Assembly: GCA_030537565.1 (NCBI GenBank)
Contig: JAUNVS010000011.1
Coordinates: 1 to 41,154 of the forward strand
Direction of reading: 5' to 3'
DNA: 41,154 nucleotides
DNA from: Eubacteriales bacterium
Lineage (GTDB): Bacteria; Bacillota; Clostridia; Saccharofermentanales; Fastidiosipilaceae
The translations under genes and the position numbers were made by a program. Of this stretch, positions 5,572 through 35,214 are shown in pieces; position 1 is the stretch's first letter; each line of letters opens with the position of its first letter. Below the pieces are notes generated by a model. It saw nothing but the letters and a program-made list of their open reading frames with translations. It searched no databases and was not told the origin of the DNA.

Positions 5572-7221
5572 CTACATTCTTTCAGCAAAAAGTTTCGCTA
5601 AAAAAGTCCAAAAAGCGTCACGATCGATATTGAAAATAATCTCACAGGTCGCAGCCGTGTACGGTCCTTTTCCCTGACGCCATGACACTGACTGACCGTA
5701 ACCGAATCCACGATTAACATCCATCACGACATCTCGAACTTCACTTTCAGTAATTAACTCAGGACACAGGAAAACACCAACGGTAATCGGATCCCAGCAG
5801 TAAGAGGTCTTCGTAGGATTGGCCTCATAACCAGGGCCTAATTTCTCAACGAGAAGTTCTGTGACCTCCGACGTATTCATCGCCACATACTGATCATACA
5901 CATCTTTAGCCATAATCACCTTTGGGGCCACATCATGCGGAACAATGATCTGTTGGGGCCAATCCGCGCGCAGACAAATGTCTACTGAATCTGGGTCGTA
6001 CCACCAGTTGAACTCTGCTAGAACACTTGCATTTCCAGGAACATCAATTGCTCCACCCATGTAAACGATCCCCGCCGCATTCTTAGCAAAATTAGGATCT
6101 TTCATGATTGCAAGTGCCACATTTGTACAAGCACCGACTGCGAAAATGGTAACTTGCCCAGGATATTTATGGACTTGTTCAATCATGAAGTCAGATGCAT
6201 TTCCCTCAGCTGCATCCGTCTCTGGAATGCCCCACTCATCATCTTGAAGCTCACCAAGTTCCTTATAATTCCGTGTGTAGTGTTCCAGTTCACGATATGC
6301 GCCCGTCCACAAGAAGGAACCATAAACTTTTGACTCAAGAGCTAGGTCTCTAAAACCACCTAAAGGAACATCCGTGCCAATGTAAACAGGAACATCTGTT
6401 CGACCCAGCCGTTCCAACTGGTTCAATGTTGCCGCCGTTCCAGTAGCAATCAGCTCATTCCCCCCAACCGTAGTAACGCCTAGCAAGTCAAGCCAGCCCG
6501 CACGATCTGCCTGAAGCAACGTAAACAGCGCAATCGCATCATCATTTAAATAACCCATATCGGTATCGAAGATCACCTTGTGTGTTTTGGCAGAGGTAAC
6601 AACATCGTATTCTTCATAAAGTTCTTTCGCTTGGATTTCACTCGATTCAATCACATTTGCGCTGGCTCTCGGGTCATTTTTCTCTTGGAGTTGAAGCTTC
6701 ATCTCTGCAGAATCAATCACCAAGTTTTCAATAATTCCTGGACGCACATCAGCGATCACACGCTCACTAGGCTGAAGTGTCATTGTAAATCTCACGTTGA
6801 AAGAGCCGTCTTCTGGACTCTGAAACTCAGCCGCACTCTCGACATCATGCCCCAAGCTTTTAATAACTTGATAGAAACCACGATCACTTTCATTGTCGCT
6901 CAAAAGTTCAATAAAGCGGAATGCATTTTTCTCCAGTTTTTTAGCTTCAAAGAGTTCCGGATTAAACACAATTTTTAACGTATATGATTCATTACTAAAC
7001 TGGAATACGGGACCGAAGAGGCTCGGACTACATGAATCCAAGCTGAGCTCTTGCTCAACCCCACCAATTTTACAGGTCAGATTTCCAAGATCTTCTGCCT
7101 GTACTTTAACGACTTGCTGCTGATCGCTCACATCATCGCTTTCGGCCAAAAGACCTGTAAGTGATGCGGAGAAAAGTATCGCAAAACTAATGACAACGGA
7201 TAAGATAGATTTCCTTTTCAT
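5572..7221 (-). CDS. Exported nucleoside hydrolase with novel N-terminal domain
   Basis: 549-residue protein. Residues 1-26 form a signal peptide (MKRKSILSVVISFAILF to LLAES). Residues about 30-205 are a beta-rich domain I do not recognise (LTCKIGGVEQELSLD, then YTLKIVFNPELFEA and FNVRFTMTLQP). Residues 215-549 are an IU-nucleoside hydrolase domain: D219-T-D221-M-G-Y-L-N-D227-D228, VTIFAVGACTNVALA, VYMGGAIDVPGN, AEFNWWYDP, IIVPHDV and a late WDPITVGVF block with the conserved aspartate. Intracellular homologues are near 310-330 residues, so the first 210 are an addition. The start is supported by GGAG eight bases upstream. It should release ribose and free base outside the cell. The upstream region carries several LacI-type operator candidates resembling those next to the ribose importer, which suggests co-regulation. 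Confidence 0.88.
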   Translation of the reverse strand: MKRKSILSVVISFAILFSASLTGLLAESDDVSDQQQVVKVQAEDLGNLTCKIGGVEQELSLDSCSPSLFGPVFQFSNESYTLKIVFNPELFEAKKLEKNAFRFIELLSDNESDRGFYQVIKSLGHDVESAAEFQSPEDGSFNVRFTMTLQPSERVIADVRPGIIENLVIDSAEMKLQLQEKNDPRASANVIESSEIQAKELYEEYDVVTSAKTHKVIFDTDMGYLNDDAIALFTLLQADRAGWLDLLGVTTVGGNELIATGTAATLNQLERLGRTDVPVYIGTDVPLGGFRDLALESKVYGSFLWTGAYRELEHYTRNYKELGELQDDEWGIPETDAAEGNASDFMIEQVHKYPGQVTIFAVGACTNVALAIMKDPNFAKNAAGIVYMGGAIDVPGNASVLAEFNWWYDPDSVDICLRADWPQQIIVPHDVAPKVIMAKDVYDQYVAMNTSEVTELLVEKLGPGYEANPTKTSYCWDPITVGVFLCPELITESEVRDVVMDVNRGFGYGQSVSWRQGKGPYTAATCEIIFNIDRDAFWTFLAKLFAERM

Positions 7222-7318
7222 CTTATGCTCCTCACTGTAGATGGCCGCATGTTTGCTGCCAATTTTAATCCCCTCGCTAAAAGGGCCCTCTAAATTAGCA
7301 ATTTGGAGTCTAGACTTA

Positions 7319-7333
7319 GGTTAAACGTTTACC
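7319..7333. promoter_or_regulatory. LacI-family operator candidate 1
   Basis: GGTTAAACGTTTACC. The core TAAACGTTTA is a perfect 10-bp palindrome with the central CG typical of LacI-family operators. It lies about 100 bases upstream of the exported nucleoside hydrolase start, in a likely roadblock position. Confidence 0.6.
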
Positions 7334-7460
7334 TTTCGTTTGTCATTACACGTTGTTATTATTTCAAACTTAGTCTTCCAAAACAAGTTTTTTGTATATT
7401 TTCATCGTTTTAACACTAAATCCGCTCTATATATGTTCATGTTGACGAGGATTTCTATTC

Positions 7461-7475
7461 ATAAATCGTTTAACC
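7461..7475. promoter_or_regulatory. LacI-family operator candidate 2
   Basis: Minus-strand reading GGTTAAACGATTTAT: same left half as the site at 7319, with a degenerate right half. Confidence 0.45.
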
Positions 7476-7530
7476 ATCCTATGCATTCATAGAGGGATTT
7501 CTCATTATATTTGAACTGTTAACACTGGAA

Positions 7531-7543
7531 CGACGTTTAATCC
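7531..7543. promoter_or_regulatory. Weak LacI-family half site
   Basis: Minus-strand reading GGATTAAACGTCG. Only one half matches the repeated GGTTAAACG element, so this could be chance in AT-rich DNA. Confidence 0.25.
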
Positions 7544-7612
7544 ACCACTTCAGTACAGAAAATCTTGTCTTTTATATTCTCACTGACCTTTTATAAATGA
7601 GAATACTAATAA

Positions 7613-7627
7613 CTTAAGCGTTTAACC
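7613..7627. promoter_or_regulatory. LacI-family operator candidate 3
   Basis: Minus-strand reading GGTTAAACGCTTAAG. Both halves match the palindromic consensus GGTTAARCGYTTAACC well. It lies about 390 bases upstream of the hydrolase start, so it could serve as an auxiliary operator for DNA looping. Confidence 0.5.
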
Positions 7628-7705
7628 TTATCAAGACTTACATCTCGCCAGCAAGTCACAAAGCAAGCTGAAGCATTCCTCAAATCATATGTGCTCAGGC
7701 TTAGC

Positions 7706-8362
7706 CTAAAGAGCAGCAATTTCTACAAGCAAAGTCGTTAGATCGCAATTTTTAAGTCCTGGGTACTGAATAACTGCCCCCTCAAGGCCTGTCGAAGTGA
7801 TTCCAATTGGCAACATGCCCGCACGTTTAGCCGCTTCAATTCCTGCCACCGAATCTTCGAAAACCGCACAAAACTCCGGATGAGTCCCCAACGCCTGGGA
7901 TCCAAGTAAAAAGACTTCAGGGTCTGGTTTTGTCCGCTGTGTATCTCGCCCATCAATAATCACATCAAATAGCTCAGAAATACCGAGGCGCTCCAAAATT
8001 AAAGGAGCATTTTTACTAGCCGAGCCAAGACCAATTCCCAAGCCATATTGGCGACAGGTATGCAAAAAACTGAGAGCACCCGGGAGGAGATCCTCCTGCG
8101 TCAAGCGAGCAATATAACTGAGATATAGCTTATTTTTATCTACCATAAATTGGAGACGATCTTCCTCACTGTAAAATTCTCTCCCTAAGGACAGGAGGAT
8201 CTCGAGACTCGCACGCCGACTGACTCCTTTTAGCCGTTCATTGTCCTGAACTGTAAAGGGAATCTGAAGTCGATCGGCCAACGCCTTCCAAGCAAGGTAG
8301 TGATAGCGAGCAGTATCGACGAGCACACCGTCTAGATCAAATAAAAAAGCTTTAATATCCAT
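7706..8362 (-). CDS. pgmB: Beta-phosphoglucomutase
   Basis: 218-residue HAD-superfamily enzyme that converts beta-glucose 1-phosphate to glucose 6-phosphate. The N-terminus carries the catalytic HAD motif FDLDGVLVDTARYHYLAWKALA; the DTARYH continuation is typical of beta-phosphoglucomutases rather than generic phosphatases. A cap region with LKGVSRRASLEILL, motif II GLGSASKNAP and motif III KPDPEVFLLG then FEDSVAGIEAAKRAGM are all present. It is the last gene of the glycoside operon, seven bases after the AraC gene. Its partner is the GH65 phosphorylase three genes upstream, which would supply beta-glucose 1-phosphate; that pairing is a standard one in maltose, trehalose and kojibiose phosphorylase loci. 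Confidence 0.93.
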   Translation of the reverse strand: MDIKAFLFDLDGVLVDTARYHYLAWKALADRLQIPFTVQDNERLKGVSRRASLEILLSLGREFYSEEDRLQFMVDKNKLYLSYIARLTQEDLLPGALSFLHTCRQYGLGIGLGSASKNAPLILERLGISELFDVIIDGRDTQRTKPDPEVFLLGSQALGTHPEFCAVFEDSVAGIEAAKRAGMLPIGITSTGLEGAVIQYPGLKNCDLTTLLVEIAAL

Positions 8363-8369
8363 AGCAAAC

Positions 8370-9284
8370 CTAACTTTCCTCGTTTTGAAGGAGATTCCTC
8401 AATAATTCCTCACGAAGTTCACGAGGGCTCAAACCCTCCCGAGATTTGATCACCGCTGAAAAGTAACTCTCATGTTGAAATCCACACATCTCTGCCACAT
8501 CTGCAATAGCTAAATCAAGATCCATAAGGAGGCGTTTGGCCTTTCGAATACGAAATTGGAGTAGATACTCATTAATCGGGACTCCAACCATCCTCTTAAA
8601 AAGTCGAGCGGCATAATCTGTATGGAAAGTAGTGACAGCCGTAATATCCGAAACACGCAACTTTCGAAAATAATTCTCACGAATAAAAGCCTTCATCAAA
8701 TTGACATTCCGAAGTGCTTTGGTGTCGGCGAGAGCTTCATCACGTTGCTCACGGTTTAAAAGCGCCAAAAGTGTATAAAATGCAGCCAGAGCTGAATACT
8801 GCCACTGGCTCCCTGCTTCTAGATAGGCATGATAAATTTGGACGAAGCAGTGCTCTACCAGCAAGCGATCTTTAACTTCAACGATCGTTTCAAAGCCGAT
8901 ATATGGACGCAACTCAAAATTCTCACGAATATGCTCTGCATGTGGAAGACTGTGAAAGAAACAACTCAGATAATCTTCCGTATTACTGTAGTAAGCAAGT
9001 GGCCAAGCAGCATCCGCACGTTCAAAGAAGTCGAGGTGAAACCAATAGCAGTCGCACGGATTATCCGGATGGATCTGGTAACGATGCGGTTGATTAGGAG
9101 TAATAACGAAGAGGCTACCGACTTTAAGATCATAGCAATGTGCCCCGATCTGCATCGTTCCCCGTCCTTTGTAACAGTAAAAAAACTGATGATCGTAAAT
9201 CCGTCGATCTTGACGGGGCCAATCATCTGTCCCCTGTATTCCCGCCTCACGAATATACGGACAAAGCCGAGCAAGCACTTTCAT
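8370..9284 (-). CDS. AraC-family transcriptional regulator
   Basis: 304 residues. The N-terminal half is a cupin-like sugar-sensing domain with the characteristic GRGTMQIG and GSLFVITPNQPHRYQ segments, and a WFHLDF strand. The C-terminal roughly 100 residues are the two helix-turn-helix AraC domain (ITAVTTFHTDYAARLFKRMVG, INEYLLQFRIRKAKRLL, IADVAEMCGFQHESYFSAVIK). GGAGG precedes its ATG, which overlaps the TAA of the EamA gene (ATGTAATG). It sits inside the operon rather than at its edge. It probably activates the operon, including itself, in response to the imported sugar; the inducer is unknown. Confidence 0.93.
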   Translation of the reverse strand: MKVLARLCPYIREAGIQGTDDWPRQDRRIYDHQFFYCYKGRGTMQIGAHCYDLKVGSLFVITPNQPHRYQIHPDNPCDCYWFHLDFFERADAAWPLAYYSNTEDYLSCFFHSLPHAEHIRENFELRPYIGFETIVEVKDRLLVEHCFVQIYHAYLEAGSQWQYSALAAFYTLLALLNREQRDEALADTKALRNVNLMKAFIRENYFRKLRVSDITAVTTFHTDYAARLFKRMVGVPINEYLLQFRIRKAKRLLMDLDLAIADVAEMCGFQHESYFSAVIKSREGLSPRELREELLRNLLQNEES

Positions 9285-10195
9285 TACATCGCCTCCAACT
9301 TAGATGAACTCTGAGCATCGAGACGAGCCGCTGCCGCTGCCGCAACTAAGATACACAGAGCCCCCAGCAAAAGTGCTGGTCGATAGGATTCATATCCCAA
9401 AATGAGGGAGAAAAATGTACCGAAGAGGCCCTCGAGACAGAGGAGAACGGCAGTTAAACTCGATGGTAGATATGCTTGTGCCCAAGTTTGCAGGAAATAG
9501 CAGAGACAGGTGCTCATGACTGCAAGATAGATAAGCGCTAAGACACCGTGCTGCCACTCAAAGCCCAATGCTTGCTTTGGTTCAATCACCAATACAATGT
9601 TGGCCCAAATTGCGGCAAAAAACAGTTGGTAGAAACTCAATCGAGCCGAATCAACCTAAGTTGAAAATGCATCGAGGCTCGTAATATGAGCAGCAAACAA
9701 AAAGGCACATAGCATCACCAGCAAATCGCCACGATTAAATTCAAATCGTCCCTCTCGATAAGAGAGAAATAGCATGCCGATAAAGGCCAATCCACTAAAT
9801 GAGAGAACTGCTAACTGCAAAGAGCGCCTCAAACACAAGCGAGCAAGAAAGGGGACGATTAGAACATTGAGTGCCGTCAGGAGCGCAGAATTTGAAACTG
9901 TCGTCTGTGCCTGACCACTCGTCTGACAATAGAATGCAGCATAGAGAAGGAAGCCACTGATCGCTCCGGCTCTAAGCTCGACCCGACGCGTCTGCCGAAG
10001 TTTGCCTGCTATACAGATCCCGAGAAGTAATGCGGCTAGTGAGAAGCGCGAAGCCATGACCAAATTCGTCGACCACTGGGCGCGAATAACTTCTTCGGTT
10101 GCAATGAAGCCTGAGCCCCAGATGATCGAAACGAGAACGAGAGCAGCAAGTGCCTTATTTTTTTGCCGAGTGCTCACTTTCACAGCGTCTTGCAT
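9284..10195 (-). pseudogene. EamA/DMT-family transporter with in-frame TAG
   Basis: About 300 codons coding for a drug/metabolite transporter with two EamA repeats and about ten membrane segments. I place the start at the ATG 10195, just after the GH65 stop, with GGAGG upstream; longer starts would run far into GH65. The first half (LALVLVSIIWGSGFIATEEVI, FLLYAAFYCQTSGQAQTT) ends at a TAG at 9656-9658. The second half continues in the same frame without any shift (VDSARLSFYQLFFAAI to ARLDAQ), so a single substitution separates this from an intact gene. TAG is used as a normal stop elsewhere here, for example by pgmB, so recoding is unlikely. It may export a sugar-derived or signalling metabolite; its link to glycoside use is unclear. 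It is either a true nonsense mutation or a consensus error. Confidence 0.8.
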
Positions 10196-10196
10196 C

Positions 10197-12542
10197 TCAT
10201 TCGCCTCCAAACTCTGCCACCGGTCGTTCATACCATGGGCTACTGACTTTGCTGTGCCCTGAATCAACATAATGCACGGGTGTCTCCGCATCACAATACA
10301 GTGTCACCGAATCTCCCTCCACGTGCACTTCAATCAAACGGCCTGCATGATAGAGGCGAAAACGCAAACTCTGCCAAGAACTCGGTAGTTGCGCCGAAAA
10401 GTGAAACCGGCCATCCGCACCAAGATGAAGACCAGCGAAACCCATGACGAGGCACTGCCAGGAGCCACCTGCGGCAGCTGCATGGAGTCCCTCTCGCGTA
10501 TTTCTATGCTTATCCTCGATATCAATGAGAGCAGAACGCAAGAAATTCTCATAGGCTTCCTCGGGCCGCCCCGAACGCAACCCCATGATGCAATGGATCG
10601 ACGGACTGAGCGAGGAGCCATGAAGAGTACGCTTCTGATAATAGTCAAAATTACTGCGTTTACTCTCCATGGAGAAATACTCATCAAAAAGATACTGCCA
10701 CATGAGGACGTCCGCCTGCTTGATAATGCTGGTTTGCTCCCTCGGATAATCCCGAAGTGCCTGAGGAAAAATGGGCATACCCTTTTCATTGAATTCTTCA
10801 ATCACTGCATCGTGAAGCTCGAAATAACCGGCAAATTCCTCGATGACCCCATCAGCGTTGAGATGTGGTGGACGAATTCGCTCAGCGAGTAGAGCCCAAT
10901 CCTGAACCTCCTCAGTCGAAATCCCGAGCCGCACGACCAACGCCTGCTGCACAGGAGATAAATCTGCCTCTCTAAAATACTTAAGGGCCAGTTTTAACTG
11001 CCAACGGATCAACTCGAGTGTATAAACACTGTCCCGAATATCCTCATGCCACTCATCGGGACCCATAATGTGACTCAAACCATAACTATCTGTAGCTTCG
11101 TCATACTCAAGCCGACTCGCCCAAAAGCGAGAGGTTTGGAAGAGAATTTCTCCAAATGCATGCTGATAATAGTCCATATCCTCTGTAAATCGATAATATT
11201 GATAAGCACCGTAGACTACGTCTGCCGTAACATGTAATTCCTGCACACCAACAACACAGGGCTCGGACGTACCATCCCACGCGATCGTATCAAGTGGGCA
11301 CTCTTCATCCCCCGTATCGGCAGACTCCCAAGGATAACGTGCCCCCACACAATCACTCGCCGCCGCATATCGAATCGCCGCGGGCAACAATTCATATCGA
11401 TACTCCAAAAGTCGCTTCGCCATCTCTGGAAAACAGAGGGTATAGAAAGGTAGTATAAATAATTCCGTATCCCAAAAAGCATGTCCTCCGTACTCCTCAC
11501 CATGGAGAAGTTTGGCCCCAATATTGCTCTTGGAGTCATGGGGATTTGGCGTGCTCATGAGATGAAATAGGCTCAGTCGCAATGCCAACTCCGAACGTTT
11601 ATCGCCCTCAATCGATATCTCACAACGCTCCCAGAATTGAGCATAGATCCTTCGATTTTCTTCAAGGAGCTGATCAAAACCAAGCGTGATTAAATTATGA
11701 AGACAGGCTGTCGCTCGAGCTCGACAATCGCCTCCGTCATGAGCGGCAACGACCGCAGCGAACTTATCAATCACATAAGCCTTTCCCTCTTCAACGTACA
11801 AATCAAAGAATTCACAAGCCACCTCGCCATAGGGGCGATACTGTCGATGCAGAACAAGTTCGTTTCCAGCCTCGTCCGAAACACGAATCGCTGTTTGTGT
11901 TGAAAAAGCTTCTTGAAAGTCACGTGTGCACGCATCCACAGCCACCCCATCACCATCAAGCGATCGAATCTCCCGAACCTCGTAATGCTTAACCCGAAAA
12001 CGAGGATAATCGATAAAATTTGTCACTGTCGCATCGATTAGATTTTCAAACTCGAGAAGTCCTGAATAATTCAAGGGTTTGATACGCACACGGATCGCCC
12101 CACCATTGGGATAGGCACGGGAGAGGAGCTTTTGAATTTCAAGCTCGGTTCTACAACCACCAGCGTCCTCGAAAATGTAATGCTTAGCGAGAAATCCCTG
12201 TTTGAGATCAAGAACCCGAATATATTCGCTCAAGACCGTTGCTGTCTGCGGACTAATCGGCTGACGACGTGAATATATGGAGAGCTTCGACCAGTCTGGC
12301 ATATTAACGAGCTCACGTTGCAGAGCCTCGGAGCGATCAAAGAGACGATGCATGTAATGTGCGGGCAAACTCGGTCTCGCTTGCCCCTCGATGTGCGCTG
12401 CACGTGAACTCATCTTTCCCGAGCATAGCGTAAAGAGACTTTCATGGGCTAGACTCGTCTGAGGATCCCAAATGTCCTCAACATATAGCCAATCTGACGC
12501 AGAAAGTTGAGCAAACAGTTTTGGCGAGAAGTTCCTGATCAT
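10197..12542 (-). CDS. GH65 disaccharide phosphorylase
   Basis: 781 residues, the usual size of GH65 inverting phosphorylases (maltose, trehalose, kojibiose, nigerose). It cleaves an alpha-glucoside with phosphate to give beta-glucose 1-phosphate. Family blocks in order: a beta-sandwich start with HESLFTLCSGKMSSR; the barrel motif HAFWDTELFILPF; GARYPWESADTGDEECP; MGPDEWHEDI with the general acid Glu at residue 497, matching the position (487) known in Lactobacillus brevis maltose phosphorylase; then KQADVLMWQ, TLHGSSLSPSIH and NTREGLHAAAAGGSW. The W in GPDEWHE, where many family members have Y, is a small variation. Its ATG overlaps the upstream GH2 stop (ATGA), showing translational coupling. 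PgmB in the same operon supports phosphorolysis over hydrolysis. The exact linkage cannot be read from sequence. Confidence 0.92.
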   Translation of the reverse strand: MIRNFSPKLFAQLSASDWLYVEDIWDPQTSLAHESLFTLCSGKMSSRAAHIEGQARPSLPAHYMHRLFDRSEALQRELVNMPDWSKLSIYSRRQPISPQTATVLSEYIRVLDLKQGFLAKHYIFEDAGGCRTELEIQKLLSRAYPNGGAIRVRIKPLNYSGLLEFENLIDATVTNFIDYPRFRVKHYEVREIRSLDGDGVAVDACTRDFQEAFSTQTAIRVSDEAGNELVLHRQYRPYGEVACEFFDLYVEEGKAYVIDKFAAVVAAHDGGDCRARATACLHNLITLGFDQLLEENRRIYAQFWERCEISIEGDKRSELALRLSLFHLMSTPNPHDSKSNIGAKLLHGEEYGGHAFWDTELFILPFYTLCFPEMAKRLLEYRYELLPAAIRYAAASDCVGARYPWESADTGDEECPLDTIAWDGTSEPCVVGVQELHVTADVVYGAYQYYRFTEDMDYYQHAFGEILFQTSRFWASRLEYDEATDSYGLSHIMGPDEWHEDIRDSVYTLELIRWQLKLALKYFREADLSPVQQALVVRLGISTEEVQDWALLAERIRPPHLNADGVIEEFAGYFELHDAVIEEFNEKGMPIFPQALRDYPREQTSIIKQADVLMWQYLFDEYFSMESKRSNFDYYQKRTLHGSSLSPSIHCIMGLRSGRPEEAYENFLRSALIDIEDKHRNTREGLHAAAAGGSWQCLVMGFAGLHLGADGRFHFSAQLPSSWQSLRFRLYHAGRLIEVHVEGDSVTLYCDAETPVHYVDSGHSKVSSPWYERPVAEFGGE

Positions 12543-15730: not shown

Positions 15731-15737
15731 ATCGCAC

Positions 15738-17472: not shown

Positions 17473-17484
17473 CAGGCACCTCCC

Positions 17485-21174: not shown

Positions 21175-21196
21175 ACCCTCATAAGGGCGGACTCAA

Positions 21197-22261
21197 TTAC
21201 TCATACAGACATGGAGCGATGTCTTCATCCGTCATGTTTTCAGCCGTGTACCACAGAGCACCCGTATCAACATCTTTGACTTCAACCCCAGATTTAGCCA
21301 TAACAGCCAGCTTGACTGCCTGATATCCGATCTGAACAGGATTCTGGGTAATGGATCCGACAAAGATACCATCACGAATGGCATCCAGCTGCTTCTTACC
21401 TGCGTCGAAACCAACAGCAATTACTTTGTCTTTACCGAGACGGTCCAAACCTTCATTAGCGGTAATCAGCGCATTAGCAGCAAACTCATTTGAACCATAT
21501 ACGGCGATGAGATCTTCTTTTTCAAGGATGGCACTGGCAACATTCGCAGCATCCGCATCTTTAACTTCAGCTGGAATACCCAGCTCGATGACGACTTTAG
21601 CGCCCTCGACAGGCTTAGCGAGCGATTCATGCCCCTCAATCGAAACCTTATCTTCACCAATTAGCTTCGCCATTTTCTCGATGAAACCAGCTGTGCGCTG
21701 CGTAATTGAAAGCGAGTTCGACTCCTGTGATACAACACCGATACGAACGGTCTCTGCTGGATCGCTGACCTTATCTTTAATTAATTCATAGAGATGTTCA
21801 GCGGCGAGTTCACCAGCGGCATAGTTGTCCGTTGATGCATTGGCAACAACAGACCCTTCTGGTGCATCCGGAACCCCCGAGTCAAATCCAACAATCGGGA
21901 TACCTTTTTCTTGTGCATTCTTCAGTGAATCCAAACTTGCTTTCGTATCCAATGCGGCAAAGCAAATCGCATCAGGATCGAGGTCGATCGCTGCATTGAG
22001 ATATTCGACCTGTTGAGCAATCGCAGATTCATTATCAGGACCTTGAAAGTTGACTTCCGCGTTAAACTCTTCACCCGCCTTTTTTACACCTGCCTCAACG
22101 GCCTTCCAGAACTGGTGCTGGAATCCCTTTGCGATCACTTCAACTCGCAAACCTTCCTGTAATTTATCTGTTTCTTCAGCGAAACTGTGGGTCATCAAAA
22201 GTGGTGTTGCAACGAGGGCCAGCGCCAATGTTGCAACAATGCTTTTTCTAATCTTCTTCAT
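21197..22261 (-). CDS. RbsB-type sugar-binding protein, probable L-fucose importer
   Basis: 354 residues, periplasmic-binding-protein fold of the ribose/galactose type. The start is the ATG at 22261 with GGAGG well spaced; 13 further upstream codons are open but unlikely. Residues 1-27 are a classical signal peptide ending THSFA-EET with no lipobox cysteine, so the protein would be secreted or held by another means. Body motifs: EVIAKGFQHQFWKAVEAGVKKAG, DPDAICFAALDT, GIPIVGFDSGV, IGVVSQE, AVYGSNEFAANALI and KVIAVGFDAG. Permease and ATPase genes precede it on the same strand, and fucI/fucA lie further upstream; L-fucose as ligand is inferred from that. Confidence 0.87.
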   Translation of the reverse strand: MKKIRKSIVATLALALVATPLLMTHSFAEETDKLQEGLRVEVIAKGFQHQFWKAVEAGVKKAGEEFNAEVNFQGPDNESAIAQQVEYLNAAIDLDPDAICFAALDTKASLDSLKNAQEKGIPIVGFDSGVPDAPEGSVVANASTDNYAAGELAAEHLYELIKDKVSDPAETVRIGVVSQESNSLSITQRTAGFIEKMAKLIGEDKVSIEGHESLAKPVEGAKVVIELGIPAEVKDADAANVASAILEKEDLIAVYGSNEFAANALITANEGLDRLGKDKVIAVGFDAGKKQLDAIRDGIFVGSITQNPVQIGYQAVKLAVMAKSGVEVKDVDTGALWYTAENMTDEDIAPCLYE

Positions 22262-22278
22262 TTCTAACCTCCTAATTA

Positions 22279-22292: not shown

Positions 22293-22387
22293 ATTGCCAT
22301 TGGGGATTTCCGCCCCTAGCCCTGCGCCTAGACACAGGAAGCAATCCGATACTTTCACATGAGATCTAGGTCTCAAACACATTTTTT

Positions 22388-24879: not shown

Positions 24880-24913
24880 AGGCCCTCCTTCCTAAATCGT
24901 TATATGAGTTTCA

Positions 24914-25594: not shown

Positions 25595-25657
25595 GGCCAC
25601 CTCCTCACAATCATGGACGTTATGGCTCGCCCCCAAAAGGACGAGCCATAAACTCAT

Positions 25658-27448: not shown

Positions 27449-27552
27449 GATGCACCTCCCATTTATTCGTTACAATCGCCCATTTAAGCCCTGGTACAAT
27501 TGCACAAATAAAAATGCTTTATTCTTCGCCATCTTATGCCATCTATTTTGGT

Positions 27553-27620
27553 TTGACAATTTTTGAATTAAATATGAATATATTTCTTAGAACTTTGAAC
27601 ATTATGATGAACTTTTGAAC
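27553..27620. promoter_or_regulatory. Divergent promoter region with phased TGAA repeats
   Basis: A perfect -35 hexamer TTGACA (27553-27558, plus strand) is followed 17 bases later by GAATAT, a poor -10, so it may drive the DeoR-family gene. TGAA elements occur at 27564, 27575, 27596 and 27616, in steps of 11, 21 and 20 bases, that is on one face of the helix. The last two are within CTTTGAAC and CTTTTGAAC. Repeated elements of this kind are expected for a DeoR-family operator controlling both directions (fucI on minus, regulator on plus). Confidence 0.5.
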
Positions 27621-27671
27621 AGTTCAGAATTAAGAGCTAATAATCATCCAGCTTACCTGTGGGAGGGGACC

Positions 27672-28424
27672 ATGTCTTACGAAGACCAAAAATCGACAAT
27701 TATCCAAATTCTCAAGCACGAACGGGTTAGTAGCACCGAAAATCTCGTAAGCAAGCTATATTTCAGCCGTTCAACTCTACGTCGAGTCTTGATTCAGATG
27801 GAAGATGAAGGTCTAGTCCGCCGTTCTCACGGACGTGTAGAGCTAGTTGATCCATCCCGTCATGAAAATCCTGCTAATCGCCGCTTTGAAGTACATCAAG
27901 ATGAGAAATTGCAAGTTAGCAAAAAAGCCCTCCCCCTAATTCGAAATGGGATGGTTATCTTCCTCGACTCAAGTTCGACCATCTACCGGCTCAGCGGTTT
28001 TCTAAAGGAGTTTGAGGATCTAAAAATTATTACTAATGGCCTTCACGTCGCCATGAACTTGCGTAATTTACGCCGTTCAGAAATTTACATTTGTCCTGGG
28101 AGAATTCGCCCAGGCTCCACTTCTGTCATCGGAGAAATCGCAGTCGATTTTATTGACTCATTTCACGCAGACCTCGCGATCTTCTCCTGTAAATCCATTG
28201 ATCCACGAGGAGGGTATGAGGGAGATTCCTCTCAAGCCATGATTAAAATGCTCATGGCGCGTCAATCAAAAGAAACAGCTCTCCTATTTGACCATCATAA
28301 AATCCATGAAAAAGGCTATTATCGCTCATTTACCTTTCCAGACATCAACTACCTAGTCTGTGATTGTGAATTGCCCAACGCCCTAAAAGTCATCACAGAA
28401 GAACATGGTTGCCAAATTCTCTAA
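27672..28424 (+). CDS. DeoR-family transcriptional regulator of the fucose genes
   Basis: 250 residues from the ATG at 27672 (GGGAGGGG upstream); a further 19 upstream codons are open but have no ribosome binding site. N-terminal winged helix (ISTENLVSKLYFSRSTLRRVLIQMEDEGLVRRSHGRVEL type) and C-terminal DeoRC sugar-phosphate sensor with MVIFLDSSSTIYRL, LKIITNGLHVAMNL, and a late ALLFDHHKIHEKGYYR block. DeoR regulators generally repress and are released by a phosphorylated pathway intermediate; L-fuculose 1-phosphate is the natural guess. It is divergent from fucI and about 140 bases ahead of the plus-strand kinase. Confidence 0.88.
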   Translation: MSYEDQKSTIIQILKHERVSSTENLVSKLYFSRSTLRRVLIQMEDEGLVRRSHGRVELVDPSRHENPANRRFEVHQDEKLQVSKKALPLIRNGMVIFLDSSSTIYRLSGFLKEFEDLKIITNGLHVAMNLRNLRRSEIYICPGRIRPGSTSVIGEIAVDFIDSFHADLAIFSCKSIDPRGGYEGDSSQAMIKMLMARQSKETALLFDHHKIHEKGYYRSFTFPDINYLVCDCELPNALKVITEEHGCQIL

Positions 28425-28562
28425 GCTTAAGCTCATTTGAACACTCGCAATGAAATCCCTCCTAGCAGGGTCAATATCACACACTGGAAAGTCCCAAAGA
28501 TCGTGATATGATGCAGCCAAACCAGTTCGCTCAGCGAGGCATAATCGAAAAAGGAGACGGAT

Positions 28563-30014
28563 ATGAAAACCTATCTGGCATACGATCTTGGTGCTTCCTC
28601 AGGTCGCCTGATGGCAGTCACCCTCGACAACGACAAGAAACTTCACCTTGAAGAGCTATATCGTTTCGATAACCACCCGATAGAAATAGACGGCCACACC
28701 TGTTGGGATCTCGATAAGATCGAGAACGCTCTCTGTGAAGGTTTGAAAATTGCATGCGAGCGCGGGCTTAATATCGTCTCGATTGGTGTTGATACTTGGG
28801 GCGTCGACTTCGTCCTCATCAACGAAGCGGGTGAACCAGCCTCGCCTGCCGTCACCTACCGAGATCCACGCACCCAAGCGATGCGCGAAATCTGCGAAAG
28901 TGATCTGAGTTTCGAGGAACACTATCGCCGCACCGGCATCGCTTACAACTGCTACAACACCGTCTACCAACTTCTCGCTCTGAGAGAGAGCAATCCAGAA
29001 TTGCTCGAATCAGCCAAACAACTCTTATTCATTCCCGACTACTTCGCATATCGTATGTCGGGCGTCCCTCATAACGAGTATTCGATTGCTAGCACTAGTG
29101 CTCTCCTCGATGCCAAAACACGTGATTGGGACTACGAGCTAATCCAGAAATTAAAACTGCCTAAACATCTCTTCAAACCTCTGAAGCAAGCTGGTTACAT
29201 ATCTGGACCACTACAAGGTAAATTCCGTGAAGCCCTCGGTTCTGATGCCCTCGTGGTTCTAGCACCTGGGCATGACACTGCCTCCGCCTTTCTATCGGTC
29301 GCGGATCCAGATGCTGACTCAGTCTACATGTCGAGTGGAACCTGGAGTCTACTTGGTCTCGTTCGTGAAGATCCTATCATAGACGGAACAAATGTTGATT
29401 ATCGCTTCACAAATGAGGGCTGTTTCGATGGCCAAATCCGCTACATCCGCAACATCATGGGACTATGGATGATCCAATCGATCCGCCGCGAGATGCAAGG
29501 TATTAGCTATGTGAAAAATCAGGCACAATCACAGCCTCAGAAAAAAATCTCTTTTCCCGAAATCATTGCTCTCGCCCGTTCTGCCCAACATTTTAGCAGC
29601 CTTATCGACGTCAACGATGAACGTTTCCTCGCCCCAGAGAGCATGCGAAACGAAGTTCGGCAAGCTTGTATAGACTCGGGGCAGACAGCTCCTGAAAATG
29701 ATGCCGAGATCCTCGCCTGTGTCTATCACTCTCTTGCCCACTGCTATGCCCAAACCATTGAGGCCCTGGAACAAAGCAAACATCTGAAGTTTAAACATCT
29801 GCGCATCTTTGGCGGAGGCTGCCAGGACACCTACCTCAATCAACTCAGTGCCAATGCCAGCTATCACCGAGTCATCGCCGGTCCCGTCGAGGCCTCCTCG
29901 CTCGGCAATGCCCTTTGTCAAATGCTAAGCGATGGAAGTTTCAAAAATCTGCACGATGCCCAAACCGCTGTCGAGGTCAGTTTTCCACTTCACAGTTTTG
30001 AAGTCATGAATTGA
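28563..30014 (+). CDS. Rhamnulokinase-family sugar kinase
   Basis: 483-residue FGGY kinase of the RhaB branch. The branch markers are the N-terminal AYDLGASSGRLMAVTL, HTCWDLDKIENAL, SIGVDTWGVDFVLI, the ATP-side SVYMSSGTWSLLGL, and the GGGCQDTYLNQLSA block near the C-terminus. GGAGACGGAT precedes the ATG. No rhaA or rhaD gene is in the window and the neighbours are fucose genes, so it may act as an L-fuculokinase; phosphorylation of L-rhamnulose remains possible if the cell takes up rhamnose elsewhere. It is co-oriented with the DeoR gene and ends at a bidirectional terminator. Because the family name and local context disagree, I give no gene symbol. Confidence 0.88.
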   Translation: MKTYLAYDLGASSGRLMAVTLDNDKKLHLEELYRFDNHPIEIDGHTCWDLDKIENALCEGLKIACERGLNIVSIGVDTWGVDFVLINEAGEPASPAVTYRDPRTQAMREICESDLSFEEHYRRTGIAYNCYNTVYQLLALRESNPELLESAKQLLFIPDYFAYRMSGVPHNEYSIASTSALLDAKTRDWDYELIQKLKLPKHLFKPLKQAGYISGPLQGKFREALGSDALVVLAPGHDTASAFLSVADPDADSVYMSSGTWSLLGLVREDPIIDGTNVDYRFTNEGCFDGQIRYIRNIMGLWMIQSIRREMQGISYVKNQAQSQPQKKISFPEIIALARSAQHFSSLIDVNDERFLAPESMRNEVRQACIDSGQTAPENDAEILACVYHSLAHCYAQTIEALEQSKHLKFKHLRIFGGGCQDTYLNQLSANASYHRVIAGPVEASSLGNALCQMLSDGSFKNLHDAQTAVEVSFPLHSFEVMN

Positions 30015-30032
30015 TCCTCTGCAAGCAGACAA

Positions 30033-30069
30033 AAAGAGGCGAGTGCACACTGTGCGCCCGCCTCTTTTA
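30033..30069. terminator. Bidirectional terminator between the kinase and rbsK
   Basis: Perfect 10-bp stem AAAAGAGGCG / CGCCTCTTTT (30033-30042 with 30060-30069). It is symmetric with T-runs on both strands and lies between convergent genes (stop at 30014 on plus, stop at 30086 on minus). Confidence 0.9.
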
Positions 30070-30085
30070 TGCGTGTCTCTTTCTC

Positions 30086-31006
30086 TTAAGCGCCTGCGAG
30101 GAAATCCCTAAGTTGCTCGATGCGTGGCATGGCAGACTGGGCCCCGGCCCCGGTCGTCGATAGAGCTGCAGCCGCATTGGCAAATCGCGCCGCCTCTTCA
30201 AGCGAAAAATCTCGACTGAGTGCAAGCGCAAGGGCCCCATTAAATGTATCCCCCGCTCCAGTTGTATCCACGGGTTTAACACGAAATGCTGGAATCATGG
30301 CTTCTTGACCATCAGAACTTAAGAGATAGGATCCCTGTTCACCAAGTTTCGCCAAGACTGCACCCACCCCACGGCCCAATAGCTCACGGCAGGCTGTAGA
30401 TATTTCTGCGGGGCTTGTACAGGGCTTGCCCGTTAAAATCGAAAGTTCAGAAGCATTCGGCGTAATGATATCCACATTCGGATATAGTGCATCTGGCAAT
30501 TCCACTGCTGGTGCTGGATCGAGAATCACCGTTTTAGCAGCTGACTTCATCTGTTCTGCAGCATAAGCCACAGAGTCAATGGGTGTCTCGAGCTGTAAGA
30601 GGAGAATATCGCAAGTCAAAATATCTGGAAGCCAAGCGTCAAGCTGAGCACGATCCACACAGCCATTTGCCCCTGCGACAATCGCTATGCGGTTTTCCCC
30701 CGCATCGTCAACTTCAATAAAGGCAGTTCCCGAGCTCACATCCTTCCGCGAATAAACCGCCGCATGACCAACCGACTCCCGCTCTAATACATCCCGATAA
30801 AAGGAAGCAGCCATATCATCGCCTAAAAGAGCAAACATCTCGACATCCGCACCTAGGCGAGCTGCCGCCACAGCTTGGTTTCCCCCCTTACCCCCTGGAT
30901 ACTGAAACAAGGAATCGGCCGAAACTGTCTCTCCAGGTTGATGGAATTTCTTTAGTCGAATCGTTACATCAAGATTCAGACTCCCTAGCACAGCAATTTT
31001 TCTCAT
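30086..31006 (-). CDS. rbsK: Ribokinase
   Basis: 306 residues from the ATG at 31006 (AGGAGT upstream). PfkB-family kinase that makes ribose 5-phosphate. N-terminal IAVLGSLNLDVTIRLKKFHQPGET, sugar-binding PGGKGGNQAVAAARLGADV (PfkB signature 1), PAPAVELPD and ITPNASELSILTG, and signature 2 DTTGAGDTFNGALALAL with the catalytic Asp and anion hole. Last gene of the rbs operon, about 75 bases after rbsC, and it ends at the bidirectional terminator. Confidence 0.95.
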   Translation of the reverse strand: MRKIAVLGSLNLDVTIRLKKFHQPGETVSADSLFQYPGGKGGNQAVAAARLGADVEMFALLGDDMAASFYRDVLERESVGHAAVYSRKDVSSGTAFIEVDDAGENRIAIVAGANGCVDRAQLDAWLPDILTCDILLLQLETPIDSVAYAAEQMKSAAKTVILDPAPAVELPDALYPNVDIITPNASELSILTGKPCTSPAEISTACRELLGRGVGAVLAKLGEQGSYLLSSDGQEAMIPAFRVKPVDTTGAGDTFNGALALALSRDFSLEEAARFANAAAALSTTGAGAQSAMPRIEQLRDFLAGA

Positions 31007-31082
31007 CTTGCTACTCCTATGATCATAGAAAAGCTCATACATGAACTAGGACCCGTCAGGGTCCCAAGTTCAGATCAGGCAC

Positions 31083-32081
31083 TTACTTCTTGGCCTCAGC
31101 GTCAGCCACTTTAAATTTAACCGATGATCCGCGACGTTCAACCAAGAGACGCCCCTGTAGAATATCGATATAGGCTGCAAGAACGATTACCAAGCCCGTC
31201 ACCACGAACTGATAGAAAGTATCGATCCGAAGAACAATCAGACCTACCTTAAGTGCTGAGAATAGAATTGCCCCGATCACTGTACCGAACACGTGCCCTC
31301 GGCCACCAGTCATACTGGTACCACCAATCGCAGCCGCAGCGATCGCTTCCATCTCATAACCCTGACCAGTTGACGGGTCACCCGTTCCTAGGCGACCAAC
31401 CATCACAAGCGCCGCAAGTGCAGTTCCTAACATACAAAACGCATACATCAGGATCTTACAACGGTCAGTCTTAACACCAGATAGACGTGCCGCCTCTTCA
31501 TTGCCACCGATCGCATAGGTATGCGCTCCAAGTCGCGTCTTGCGCATCATCACGGCAATGATCAGCGCAAAGATAATGAAGTAGAGAACAGAAACTGTCA
31601 AAGTCGCTCCGATTTTTGCATTCAGAGGCTGACGATATGCCTGCGGCACACCAAGCACTGGGAAACCTCCAGTAATGATGTAGGCGAGCCCTCGGTAAAC
31701 CGACATGGTACCCATGGTCGCTACGAAGGGTTGCAGGTGCATTTTCGTAATCAAGAATCCATTCACCAAGCCCATCCCAAATCCAATCAGCAGACAGAGG
31801 GGCATCCAAATCCAAATTGGCATTCCCGCCTTTGCTAATTGAGCCGCAACACAGGCTACGAAAGCCAGTCCAGACCCAACCGAAAGATCAATTCCTCCAG
31901 TTAGGATAACCAGAGTCATACCAATTCCCATCAATCCATATGTAACCGCCTGCTGAATGATAGTCACTTGATTACTCACTGATAGGTAGGAGTTATTCAA
32001 AATGGAAAATAAAATAATCGCCAGTATTAGAGCCGCGAGAGTACTTAGCTCACGTCGGTATTTCGTGTAAATCATTTTCAT
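31083..32081 (-). CDS. rbsC: Ribose-type ABC permease
   Basis: 332-residue CUT2 permease with about ten membrane segments. Typical blocks: GMTLVILTGGIDLSVGSGLAF, ITKMHLQPFVATMGTMSVYRGLAYI, GAHTYAIGGNEEAARLSGVKT and MEAIAAAAIGGTSMTGGRG. The ATG overlaps the rbsA stop (ATGA). Ribose is inferred from the neighbouring ribokinase and LacI regulator; a different pentose or autoinducer-2-like sugar is possible. Confidence 0.9.
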   Translation of the reverse strand: MKMIYTKYRRELSTLAALILAIILFSILNNSYLSVSNQVTIIQQAVTYGLMGIGMTLVILTGGIDLSVGSGLAFVACVAAQLAKAGMPIWIWMPLCLLIGFGMGLVNGFLITKMHLQPFVATMGTMSVYRGLAYIITGGFPVLGVPQAYRQPLNAKIGATLTVSVLYFIIFALIIAVMMRKTRLGAHTYAIGGNEEAARLSGVKTDRCKILMYAFCMLGTALAALVMVGRLGTGDPSTGQGYEMEAIAAAAIGGTSMTGGRGHVFGTVIGAILFSALKVGLIVLRIDTFYQFVVTGLVIVLAAYIDILQGRLLVERRGSSVKFKVADAEAKK

Positions 32082-33568
32082 TCTTCGTCCTCCATGGCAT
32101 GCGCCAATAATAGATCTTCTCGAGCATCTTCACGTAAGACATCCGCACTAATCACGCCATCGCGCATTACATAAATTCGATCACTCATACCGATAACCTC
32201 TGTCAGCTCAGAGGAAACCATGATGATCGAAATCCCTTTTTTGAGCATTGACTCCATCAGTGCGTAGATCTCGGCCTTTGCGCCAATATCGATCCCCTTC
32301 GTAGGCTCATCAAATACAAGCACGGGTGCTTCGGTAGAAAGCCATCGCGCTAGCATGACTTTTTGCGCATTACCACCCGAGAGCCCTGACGTCGGAAAAA
32401 ACGGATCATTGGGTGTCAGACCAACTTCCGCGCCACGTCGCTTCGCATTTTCAACCTGCGCTTTATGATCCAGAAATCCAGCTCGAACAAACTGTTTTAG
32501 ACATGAAATCGAAATATTGCTGAGGTTATCAAGATTCGGGATAATTCCCTCTTCCTTACGATTTTCGGTGATTAATCCAAACCCAGCTTGGACGGCTTGT
32601 GACGGATTGCGGAATCTGAGTGATGTGCCATTCAAGCGAATCTCTCCGCCATCGATGGGATCAGCTCCAAAAATCCCGCGCATCAGTTCGCTACGACCAG
32701 CACCAACCAGTCCGAAAAAGCCGAGCAACTCCCCCTTACGCAGATAGAAACTACAATCATGGAATTTACTGCCACTAACATGCTCAACCTCAAGCACACG
32801 CTCTGAACTGGCCTGACAGGGAAGCGTACGGCGAGCAAACATCGAAACATCTCGCCCGACCATAGCTCGGATGATCTCGTCACGGCTCGTCTTGGCTAAT
32901 TCGTAGGTACCAATATATGCACCATCTCGCATCACCGTCGCCCGTGAGCAGAGTTCAAAAATTTCATCCATCTTATGACTAATGTATAAGATCGTTATGC
33001 CGCGCGACTGAAGCTCGCGAATCATCTTAAATAGCAATGCCACTTCGACATCTGACAGAGAAGCCGTCGGTTCATCAAAAGAAATTAAACGGGCATTACT
33101 TTCGATCGCCTTTGCGATCGTGACCATTTGTTTCTGTCCCGTCATCAGAGATCCCATAACATCTGTGGCTTTAAAATTGCATTTCAGCCGTTTAAGCATC
33201 TCCGTGGTTTTCTCGTTCATCAACTTATGATTAACAATCCCACAATGGCCCGGTTCTTCACCGAGAAACATATTCTCAGCAACCGTCCGTTCAGGGAGGA
33301 TTGAGAGCTCCTGATGAACTTTTACAATCCCTGCCGCCTTCGCCATATGGATGTCACGAAAACGCACGGACTTACCCTCAATGCGCACCTCTCCCTCGCT
33401 CGGCAGAAAAACACCATGCAAGATATTTAGCAGCGTGCTCTTGCCTGCCCCATTTTCACCGATAATCGCATGAATCTCTCCGCGATTGATCGAAAATGAA
33501 ACATCTTTAAGCGCTTGTGTTCCAGGAAAAAATTTTGAAATATGAGAAAACTCAATCAGTTTTTCCAT
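32078..33568 (-). CDS. rbsA: Ribose-type ABC ATPase, two domains
   Basis: 496 residues. Domain 1 has Walker A GENGAGKSTLLNILHG, signature MTGQKQMVTIAKAI and Walker B LISFDEPTASLSD. Domain 2 has GLVGAGRSELMRGIFG in place of Walker A, signature LSGGNAQKVMLARWLS and VLVFDEPTKGIDIGAK. GGAGGG precedes the ATG. It is separated from the upstream binding-protein gene by 217 bases containing a terminator, so it is expressed by readthrough or from an unseen promoter in that gap. Confidence 0.93.
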   Translation of the reverse strand: MEKLIEFSHISKFFPGTQALKDVSFSINRGEIHAIIGENGAGKSTLLNILHGVFLPSEGEVRIEGKSVRFRDIHMAKAAGIVKVHQELSILPERTVAENMFLGEEPGHCGIVNHKLMNEKTTEMLKRLKCNFKATDVMGSLMTGQKQMVTIAKAIESNARLISFDEPTASLSDVEVALLFKMIRELQSRGITILYISHKMDEIFELCSRATVMRDGAYIGTYELAKTSRDEIIRAMVGRDVSMFARRTLPCQASSERVLEVEHVSGSKFHDCSFYLRKGELLGFFGLVGAGRSELMRGIFGADPIDGGEIRLNGTSLRFRNPSQAVQAGFGLITENRKEEGIIPNLDNLSNISISCLKQFVRAGFLDHKAQVENAKRRGAEVGLTPNDPFFPTSGLSGGNAQKVMLARWLSTEAPVLVFDEPTKGIDIGAKAEIYALMESMLKKGISIIMVSSELTEVIGMSDRIYVMRDGVISADVLREDAREDLLLAHAMEDEE

Positions 33569-33650
33569 CCAAACCCTCCGTTCTCAAAAATATACTGGCT
33601 TCCTCAAACCACTGCACTCGGGTTAATGACCAACGGATCTAAACTGTAAG

Positions 33651-33687
33651 AAAAAAAGGGGAGCTGGTACTAAGTTCCAAACTCCCC
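33651..33687 (-). terminator. Intra-operon terminator after rbsB
   Basis: On the minus strand GGGGAG (33682-33687) pairs with CTCCCC (33658-33663), with inner pairing GG/CC, followed by TTTTTTTC. It lies between rbsB and rbsA on the same strand and should give more binding protein than transporter. Confidence 0.85.
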
Positions 33688-33785
33688 ACCATCATAGCTC
33701 GAATCAAAACATTTATAGCCCTTGCAAGAAATAATTACAAAGCAAACGCTAGAGCCACCTCAGGGTTTAAGTGAGTCGAAATGTC

Positions 33786-34877
33786 TTATTCAACATTCGG
33801 CTTATATTCGTAACCGAAGACCTCTTCAAAGCTCTTATCAATATTCTCAGCATCACGGACACACTGAGGGGCGTAGATAACGGTCGGAACCTTTTGTCCA
33901 GCTAGCTTACGAATCTGCATTTCGACACCAATGGCACCCATAACCTGAGGGCTAAAATCGATCGTCGCATCGAGGACACCGCCCTTAATGGACTCCATCG
34001 CTTCGCTCGTTCCATCGGTACCAACGATTACGCAGCTGCTGCTAATCGCCTCGCGAGCCTCGACAGCGCCCATCGCCATCGTATCGTTGTTGCAGTAAAT
34101 ACCACCAAGATCTGGATGCTGCTGAAGCAGAGTCTGCGTAATGTCGTAAGCCTTTTGGCGATCCCAGTCACCATTTTGAACCGCTACGATCTCGACCTTA
34201 TCTGGATTGTTCTTTTCAAAATAGTCTTTGAACCCCTGGGTACGAGCCTGAGCAGCAGTTGCCTGTGAAAGACCAGTAATGCATGCGACCTTACCTTCGC
34301 CACCGATCTTCTTATCAATCCACTCAGCAGCCTGATAACCGGCCTTATAGTGCCAAGCACCAACCGTGCACGTGGCATAAGGGGTAAACGCATCCATAAC
34401 CGTCGTTAAATCGACGCCATCTTGGCGCGCTTTTTCGAAGCCTGGAACGAGGTTGCTAGCAGAAATACCTGAAACAAGAATGCCCTTATAACCTTTATTG
34501 ATCATGTCCATAAGAAGGGTAAGCTGACCCTCCTCGTCGCTCTCAGTCTGTGCACCACGGACATCAATTTCGACATCGAAACCTGCATCACGGAAGAGTT
34601 GTGCACCCTGTTCGGCGCCTTCTTTTTCCATGCGCCAGAATTCGTTTTCAAAAGTCTTCGTTGCGAAACCTAATTCAATCTTGTCCTCGAGCTTCGGAAT
34701 GGCTGGAAGCTCTTCGCGGATATCGTTGTACTGAACGGCCCCATCATAGAAGTCGTAGCCCTGCTTCTCGACTTCGGCACCTGGTAGCTCATCATCTGCT
34801 CGTAGGGTGCCACCCATGGGCAGTATTACTAGGCCTAAGGCCAATGCATACATGAGAGTTCTTTTCGCTGTCTTCAT
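33786..34877 (-). CDS. rbsB: RbsB-type sugar-binding protein
   Basis: 363 residues. Signal peptide MKTAKRTLMYALALGLVILP to GGTLRA-DDE, again without a lipobox cysteine. Periplasmic-binding fold: KIELGFATKTFENEFWRMEKEGAEQGAQ, GYKGILVSGISASNL, KVACITGLSQATAAQARTQGF, LGGIYCNNDTMAMGAVEA and VIVGTDGTSEAMESI. The segment of about 30 residues between signal and fold (EVEKQGYDFYDGAVQYNDI) is longer than in typical RbsB and could be a spacer. AAGGAG precedes the ATG. First gene of the rbs operon and divergent from the LacI gene, with operator candidates between them. Ribose is inferred from context. Confidence 0.87.
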   Translation of the reverse strand: MKTAKRTLMYALALGLVILPMGGTLRADDELPGAEVEKQGYDFYDGAVQYNDIREELPAIPKLEDKIELGFATKTFENEFWRMEKEGAEQGAQLFRDAGFDVEIDVRGAQTESDEEGQLTLLMDMINKGYKGILVSGISASNLVPGFEKARQDGVDLTTVMDAFTPYATCTVGAWHYKAGYQAAEWIDKKIGGEGKVACITGLSQATAAQARTQGFKDYFEKNNPDKVEIVAVQNGDWDRQKAYDITQTLLQQHPDLGGIYCNNDTMAMGAVEAREAISSSCVIVGTDGTSEAMESIKGGVLDATIDFSPQVMGAIGVEMQIRKLAGQKVPTVIYAPQCVRDAENIDKSFEEVFGYEYKPNVE

Positions 34878-34974
34878 CGCTCGACTCCTTATTTATGCTG
34901 CATGAAACATTCGCAGCTGACCAGCTAGAGCTGGCCGTACCAATGATGTGTGAAACTCGCATCTAGGCTTAGCA

Positions 34975-34989
34975 GGTTAAGCGTTTATT
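34975..34989. promoter_or_regulatory. LacI-family operator candidate, rbs proximal
   Basis: GGTTAAGCGTTTATT; left half and core match the sites at 7319 and 7613. It lies about 100 bases upstream of the rbsB start, the same distance as the 7319 site from its hydrolase start. Confidence 0.6.
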
Positions 34990-35117
34990 CCACTCCAAAC
35001 ATTTACCACCTCGATTATTCCAAACAGAAGCTACTAAAACAACCATTTTTGAACAATTTCATCAATTCCACATTTTTATTCCCGCTAATTTGTGCTTAAT
35101 GCACGGCGTGATCAGTA

Positions 35118-35132
35118 GTTAAGCATTTGACC
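35118..35132. promoter_or_regulatory. LacI-family operator candidate, lacI proximal
   Basis: GTTAAGCATTTGACC; reverse reading GGTCAAATGCTTAAC resembles the 7613 site GGTTAAACGCTTAAG. It is placed about 85 bases before the LacI-family gene, as expected for autoregulation. Confidence 0.45.
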
Positions 35133-35214
35133 TGATGCCCGTTTTCAATTACTCTGTACCTAATCGCAATCGGAACCATATCAAGACTTGGATAAGTAGA
35201 ATCAGGAGGCTCAT

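Follow-up and report, generated by a model that had tools for sequence, protein, structure and literature searches.

A candidate regulon of two transcription units, in which an RbsR-like repressor would join a predicted exported nucleoside hydrolase with ribose import, in a Eubacteriales genome

The studied sequence comprises positions 1–41,154 of contig JAUNVS010000011.1 from a Eubacteriales bacterium of the family Fastidiosipilaceae (phylum Bacillota, assembly GCA_030537565.1). Further in the text this whole stretch is referred to as the window. The source assembly contains 1.59 Mb in 81 contigs and is 84% complete. In the window, operators of one kind precede both the gene of a 549-residue nucleoside hydrolase with a signal-like N-terminus (NH549) and the genes of a ribose-type importer and a ribokinase, as is expected of a nucleoside-plus-ribose regulon of the RbsR/UriR type. 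The sites are real, and most likely so is a two-unit regulon of an RbsR-like repressor. Judging from the sequence, it is quite probable that this repressor controls NH549, predicted to be secreted, together with rbsBAC and rbsK.

Operator-like sites in two intergenic gaps

The gap upstream of NH549 contains three operator-like sites, GGTTAAACGTTTACCT (7319..7334), CATAAATCGTTTAACC (7460..7475) and ACTTAAGCGTTTAACC (7612..7627). Two more, GGTTAAGCGTTTATTC (34975..34990) and AGTTAAGCATTTGACC (35117..35132), are located in the gap between the rbsB-like gene and the lacI gene. All five had been proposed as LacI-type sites in an earlier note on this DNA, three of them with coordinates off by one (7461, 7613 and 35118 for 7460, 7612 and 35117). 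The sites were scored against the consensus GGTTAARCGYTTAACC, itself derived from them. Those at 7319, 7612 and 34975 have two mismatches each, and the one at 35117 has three. The site at 7460 is weak, with four mismatches and a single good half.

The position of the main site is the same in both units: it begins 98 bases away from the NH549 start codon (7319 − 7221) and 98 bases away from that of rbsB (34975 − 34877), in agreement with the earlier estimate of about 100 bases. The site at 35117 is found 83–98 bases before lacI. Both promoter regions also carry the sequence TAAGYCTAGA near the main operator, as TAAGTCTAGA at 7309..7318 and TAAGCCTAGA at 34962..34971, both on the minus strand.

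The full motif with at most two mismatches has three matches in the whole assembly, every one in the two gaps. Within the window, five matches with at most three mismatches were found (0.41 expected), a number reached in none of 100 shuffles. Four of them (7319, 7612, 34975 and 35117) belong to the two gaps. The remaining match, at 22060, is intragenic and was not retained as an operator. The gaps were then tested separately, with 20,000 dinucleotide shuffles for each. For the NH549 gap, two sites with at most two mismatches were observed in no shuffle, and two sites with at most three mismatches in one shuffle. For the rbsB/lacI gap, one site with at most two mismatches was observed in four shuffles, and two with at most three mismatches in none.

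Since the consensus had been drawn from the sites, the test was repeated without it. Each 14-mer of both gaps served as a seed, and matches of at least 12/14 on either strand were counted. The best seed, TTAAGCGTTTAACC, recovers the same five sites. A count of five was reached in none of 1000 dinucleotide shuffles, where the largest count was four (one shuffle). When all 78 pairings of the window's intergenic gaps are ranked, these two gaps come first with five sites; the next best pair has three. No Rfam matches were found in the window at gathering scores, and scans for σ70-like promoters and for terminators gave no excess over shuffles.

Genes of the two units and their putative regulator

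NH549 is encoded on the minus strand (5572..7221) and is followed on the same strand by a second nucleoside hydrolase gene of 390 residues, NH390 (4264..5436). Both proteins belong to the Pfam family IU_nuc_hydro (PF01156, cut-off 34.2 bits). NH549 scores 195.2 bits (E 2.5e-57) over positions 1–296 of the 297-position profile, its catalytic domain covering residues 216–538, and NH390 scores 223.1 bits (E 8.5e-66) over positions 1–297. Both also match solved nucleoside hydrolase structures. The Asp-rich metal motif at the start of the domain reads DTDMGYLNDD in NH549 and DTDNGEFGDD in NH390, and the DxD metal loop is two residues longer than in five cytosolic homologues. Each N-terminus is signal-like, with a basic start and a hydrophobic stretch (17-residue means 2.27 for NH549 and 2.51 for NH390), then LLAES or AAAES, respectively. 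The N-terminal region of NH549, about 190 residues, has no Pfam match; within it, the roughly 180 residues before the domain (residues ~28–205) are absent from NH390 and from the related protein of genome G407 described below. A structure prediction for NH549 made without an alignment had a mean predicted local distance difference test score of 34.6 and was discarded as too poor.

In IU-type nucleoside hydrolases a His near the C-terminus serves as the leaving-group acid, and IAG-type enzymes have Trp in place of that His. The C-terminal pair, His-Asp in the IU type, is Trp-Asp in NH549 and Phe-Asp in NH390; His-Asp is not required for family membership. A purine preference of the aromatic-bearing exported hydrolases is only a guess.

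The Omp85 family was found in none of 20 genomes from the group, among them the genome of the window, and in 7 of 14 control genomes. Therefore the cell probably has a single membrane, and an exported hydrolase would end up outside it.

The rbs-like genes also lie on the minus strand. The product of the rbsB-like gene (33786..34877) is a sugar-binding protein matching Pfam Peripla_BP_4 (E 4.2e-52), with NCBIfam allose- and ribose-binding models below their cut-offs. The rbsA-like gene (32078..33568) encodes an ATP-binding cassette (ABC) ATPase with two stretches of Pfam ABC_tran; the arabinose, xylose and ribose models score below cut-offs. The permease encoded by the rbsC-like gene (31083..32081) matches BPD_transp_2, and its top NCBIfam model, ribose permease, is below the cut-off. 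The last gene (30086..31042) codes for ribokinase, RbsK, which passes the cut-off of TIGR02152 (317.6 against 299.65 bits).

The lacI gene (35215..36231, plus strand) is divergent from this operon with its ribokinase. Its protein matches Pfam LacI (60.2 bits) and Peripla_BP_3 (99.2 bits), both above cut-off. Its two best NCBIfam models are those of RbsR (220.9 and 184.0 bits), followed by PurR (175.7) and CcpA (169.6). We call the protein RbsR-like because the RbsR models score best and yet remain below their cut-offs. When the assembly was searched for the LacI helix-turn-helix family (19 candidates scored), one domain was found, that of this gene.

The proposed mechanism is as follows. The LacI protein (35215–36231) would bind the TTAARCGYTTAA-type operators of both gaps and hold the two transcription units at a low level, probably together with its own gene. 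The repression would be lifted once ribose in free form, or a compound made from it, reaches the cell. NH549, perhaps joined by NH390 through read-through, would then be secreted and would split extracellular nucleosides into base and ribose. The ribose set free would enter through RbsBAC and be phosphorylated by RbsK. The model predicts a regulon of two promoters under a single repressor.

At least three more nucleoside hydrolase genes are present in the assembly, on contigs C80, C64 and C33. The genes at C80:13792-14672 (locus L080) and C64:26302-27103 (locus L081) are each in two overlapping frames. Within the loci examined, the best matches of the operator motif near the three genes have at least five mismatches. 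A separate Bmp-type binding protein is encoded in locus L177 (C30:42000-57449), where by eye the neighbours resemble the ATPase and two permeases of an ABC transporter and, in addition, a cytidine deaminase. The core motif at up to one mismatch was not found at this Bmp gene in the 15 kb examined, hence no nucleoside transporter was placed in the regulon. The organism may import whole nucleosides as well, via the C30 system.

At the edge of the window (1–2667, minus strand) two overlapping frames, 2–1390 (open at the window edge) and 1345–2667, appear by eye to be one large repeat-bearing surface protein split over two frames. The 440-residue frame in this region has no Pfam match.

Comparison with other genomes

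The relatives sampled for the comparisons of LacI proteins and hydrolases include no genus-mate of the genome studied. Searches with NH549 or with an alignment of the exported-type hydrolases covered overlapping samples, each with its own E-value limit: 98 relatives (1e-3), 398 genomes of the phylum (1e-20), 72 genomes of the class of G407 (1e-50) and 391 of the window's own class (1e-45). Across these genomes a strong member outside the own genome was found in G407 alone, a genome of the same phylum and another class. The G407 protein is of the exported type and is 43–44% identical to the hydrolases of the window. RbsA-, RbsC- and RbsB-like genes lie directly downstream of it on the same strand, with scores below the cut-offs of those models. 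This operon-like row is an independent physical link of a predicted exported nucleoside hydrolase with a putative ribose-type importer. With mechanically chosen starts, a hydrophobic stretch before the metal motif was present in the single hydrolase frame of G407 and in none of 27 hydrolase frames from relatives in the loci fetched.

Two further exported-type hydrolases are encoded on Burkholderiales megaplasmids, L216:7956-9038 (Paraburkholderia) and L218:7980-9092 (Caballeronia). They have a lipobox-like start (LSGC or LAGC), an NWW motif and an aromatic residue before the C-terminal Asp. NH549, NH390, the G407 protein and these two were aligned. All five contain FNWW or LNWW and a DxD loop two residues longer, and in all five the residue before the C-terminal Asp is aromatic (Trp, Phe or Tyr), compared with His in four and Tyr in one of five cytosolic proteins. 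A further pairing of LacI and nucleoside hydrolase is seen on a conjugative plasmid of Escherichia coli (NZ_CP117958.1, L219:5049-7074), where the gene of a LacI-family regulator and the beginning of a hydrolase gene overlap.

Among the relatives, G018 and G013, whose LacI matches rank third and fourth, carry lacI in or beside rows of Bmp-type nucleoside importer genes with one or three cytosolic hydrolases. For their LacI proteins the RbsR models are again best and below cut-off. Perfect AAAACGTTTT palindromes were found just upstream of the Bmp importer genes of both genomes: GCTAAAACGTTTTAGC at L085:1287 in G013, and AGTAAAACGTTTTACT within a 30-base perfect palindrome (L084:15075-15104) in G018. 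The G018 row behind this palindrome includes a Bmp importer gene, a nucleoside hydrolase gene, lacI and a sugar kinase gene. A third relative, G001, was dropped as operator evidence, its best palindrome (L086:8051) having only 6/8 pairs. The neighbouring L086 gene at 8084–8494, a candidate RbsD, turned out to encode a GNAT acetyltransferase.

It is possible that the exported hydrolases marked by FNWW or LNWW, an aromatic-Asp pair and the longer loop form a distinct and sparse group that harvests ribose outside the cell in coupling with its import, although we propose this only tentatively. The coupling would be represented here by the shared LacI operators and in G407 by the row with RbsABC-like genes. 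Such an outside-first route would be an alternative to the relatives' route of import followed by hydrolysis.

Alternative explanations and known regulons

The proposal of the earlier note, one LacI-family regulator connecting exported hydrolase and ribose import, is partly supported. Its core idea is consistent with the tests that could be computed: at up to two mismatches the motif is confined to the two gaps, a single LacI domain was found, and G407 has an operon-like row. Its wording that the exported hydrolases share operators applies to NH549, which has sites, and fails for NH390, which has none. The complete scavenging route from environmental RNA that it also proposes would be an extrapolation beyond these data; the assembly in addition contains the separate Bmp-type system and further hydrolase genes lacking the motif.

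Several observations weigh against a single RbsR-like repressor acting on both units. NH390 is separated from NH549 by 135 bp and, because it has no site of its own, could be included only via read-through across this gap. The sites are imperfect palindromes, with 6/8 paired positions at 7319, 5/8 at 7612 and 34975, and 4/8 at 35117 and 7460; therefore it is the five sites taken together that are palindromic. The signal of the consensus-free test depends on the threshold, as its count was reached by 3 of 100 shuffles at 11/14 or more and by 47 of 100 at 10/14 or more. The transporter subunits are below the ribose cut-offs, and allose and arabinose models were matched too. The lacI protein does not reach the RbsR equivalog cut-offs (220.9 against 382 and 184.0 against 531 bits), and a second LacI protein could be missing because the assembly is 84% complete. 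With at most three mismatches no enrichment is seen across the genome, where the motif has 17 matches and the reversed motif, used as the control, has 16. In the relatives, hydrolase genes occur in only 3 of 25 LacI-centred loci, one of which, in G001, was chosen for a nearby hydrolase match, and lacI occurs in none of the 15 hydrolase-centred loci fetched. From named genomes 29 LacI loci were obtained, with best segments only 23–35% identical. No hydrolase match (BLASTP, 1e-10, more than 60 bits) was found in the flanks examined, so no named orthologue is recognised. An orthologue with conserved operators was not found among the sampled relatives, which lack a genus-mate. Finally, the PLSDB gene tables, which are incomplete, show no ribose importer, ribokinase or LacI gene in the roughly 8 kb around the L216 and L218 hydrolases.

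A broader carbon or sugar regulator of the CcpA type, for which NH549 and rbs would be two targets among many, is unlikely. The core of the motif resembles cre-type LacI sites, and only one LacI protein was found in the assembly. With at most one mismatch the 12-base core was matched 24 times and its control 17 times. Of the core matches, 21 are outside the window: 15 are inside genes, four lie between open reading frames (C34, C40, C43 and C74), and two, in C18 and at C25:5829, fall in small frames judged spurious. The match at C18:53348 is 13 bp upstream of a gene that by eye resembles a sugar permease. Beside the six non-genic matches no ribose or nucleoside genes were recognised by eye. 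However, the looser matches are mostly intragenic. Of the 12 matches to the full motif with at most three mismatches outside the window, nine are inside genes by open reading frame calls, C34:2922 and C63:7208 are intergenic, and C5:12982 overlaps a gene end. Scattering of the motif before unrelated genes, named in the earlier note as evidence against its proposal, was not observed with at most two mismatches, the level at which a CcpA-like regulator also lacks any full-motif site elsewhere; the looser level allows no judgement. Moreover, the RbsR models score above CcpA, and lacI adjoins rbs.

Similarly improbable is control by two regulators, one of them missing from the assembly or belonging to another family, with the likeness of the sites due to common descent of the operators or to convergence within the LacI family. 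LacI paralogues often have closely similar operators, the incompleteness of the assembly leaves room for a second protein, and the window itself contains AraC-like (8370) and DeoR-like (27615) genes, but the single LacI domain found and five like sites at equal spacing across both gaps argue for one regulator. A chance likeness of the gaps with no common regulator is very improbable: the motif is short, both gaps are more A+T-rich than the window and the significance varies with the threshold, yet the pair stands first of 78, with 0/1000 shuffles reaching its count and an identical 98-base spacing.

Coupling of a ribose repressor to nucleoside hydrolase genes is already known, as such regulons have been published for Bifidobacterium and Corynebacterium glutamicum. 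In passages of PMC4746261, the bifidobacterial RbsR2 and RbsR3 are predicted to control ribokinase and nucleoside transporters along with a hydrolase, RihC or IunH. As here, an RbsR-type LacI protein is placed over ribokinase and hydrolase genes, and the consensus TGATAAAACGTTTTATCA has the same AA-CG-TT centre. In contrast, the bifidobacterial hydrolase is paired in these passages with the predicted nucleoside transporters rihT, rihP and nupC, whereas in the window the operators are common to a predicted exported hydrolase and a ribose-type importer. Beyond their common centre the two motifs are different. In C. glutamicum, an operon of ribokinase, uridine transporter and uridine-preferring hydrolase is under a local repressor and RbsR, and in one study the rbs operon alone responded to the loss of RbsR (both as cited in passages of PMC3146418). 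That UriR/RbsR system differs in its two repressors and uridine transporter; the same passages mention no exported hydrolase. UriR is listed among nucleoside regulators in a LacI-family survey (PMC4052901). The ribose-scavenging (Rus) system of Bacteroides thetaiotaomicron, as outlined in passages of PMC12596196, PMC11915817 and PMC13011590, is likewise a dedicated regulon harvesting ribose from nucleosides, in another bacterial phylum and with the regulator RusR. The Burkholderiales megaplasmid hydrolases share with NH549 and NH390 the sequence features given above and differ in the annotated neighbourhood.

In open-licence literature, judged mostly by listings, nothing on point was found that connects exported nucleoside hydrolases of bacteria with ribose, and queries for extracellular, secreted or periplasmic nucleoside hydrolases gave plant titles only. 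What sets the present case apart is that a predicted exported hydrolase is combined with a ribose importer, in place of one for nucleosides, and that one repressor would control both.

The published regulons compared, as far as the passages cited describe them, couple a hydrolase to transporters of nucleosides, which means uptake first and hydrolysis within the cell. If the two-unit regulon of an RbsR-like repressor is true, the organism would turn surrounding nucleosides into a sugar source and release the free bases to its neighbours. This would also provide a function for the exported nucleoside hydrolases found in distant bacteria.

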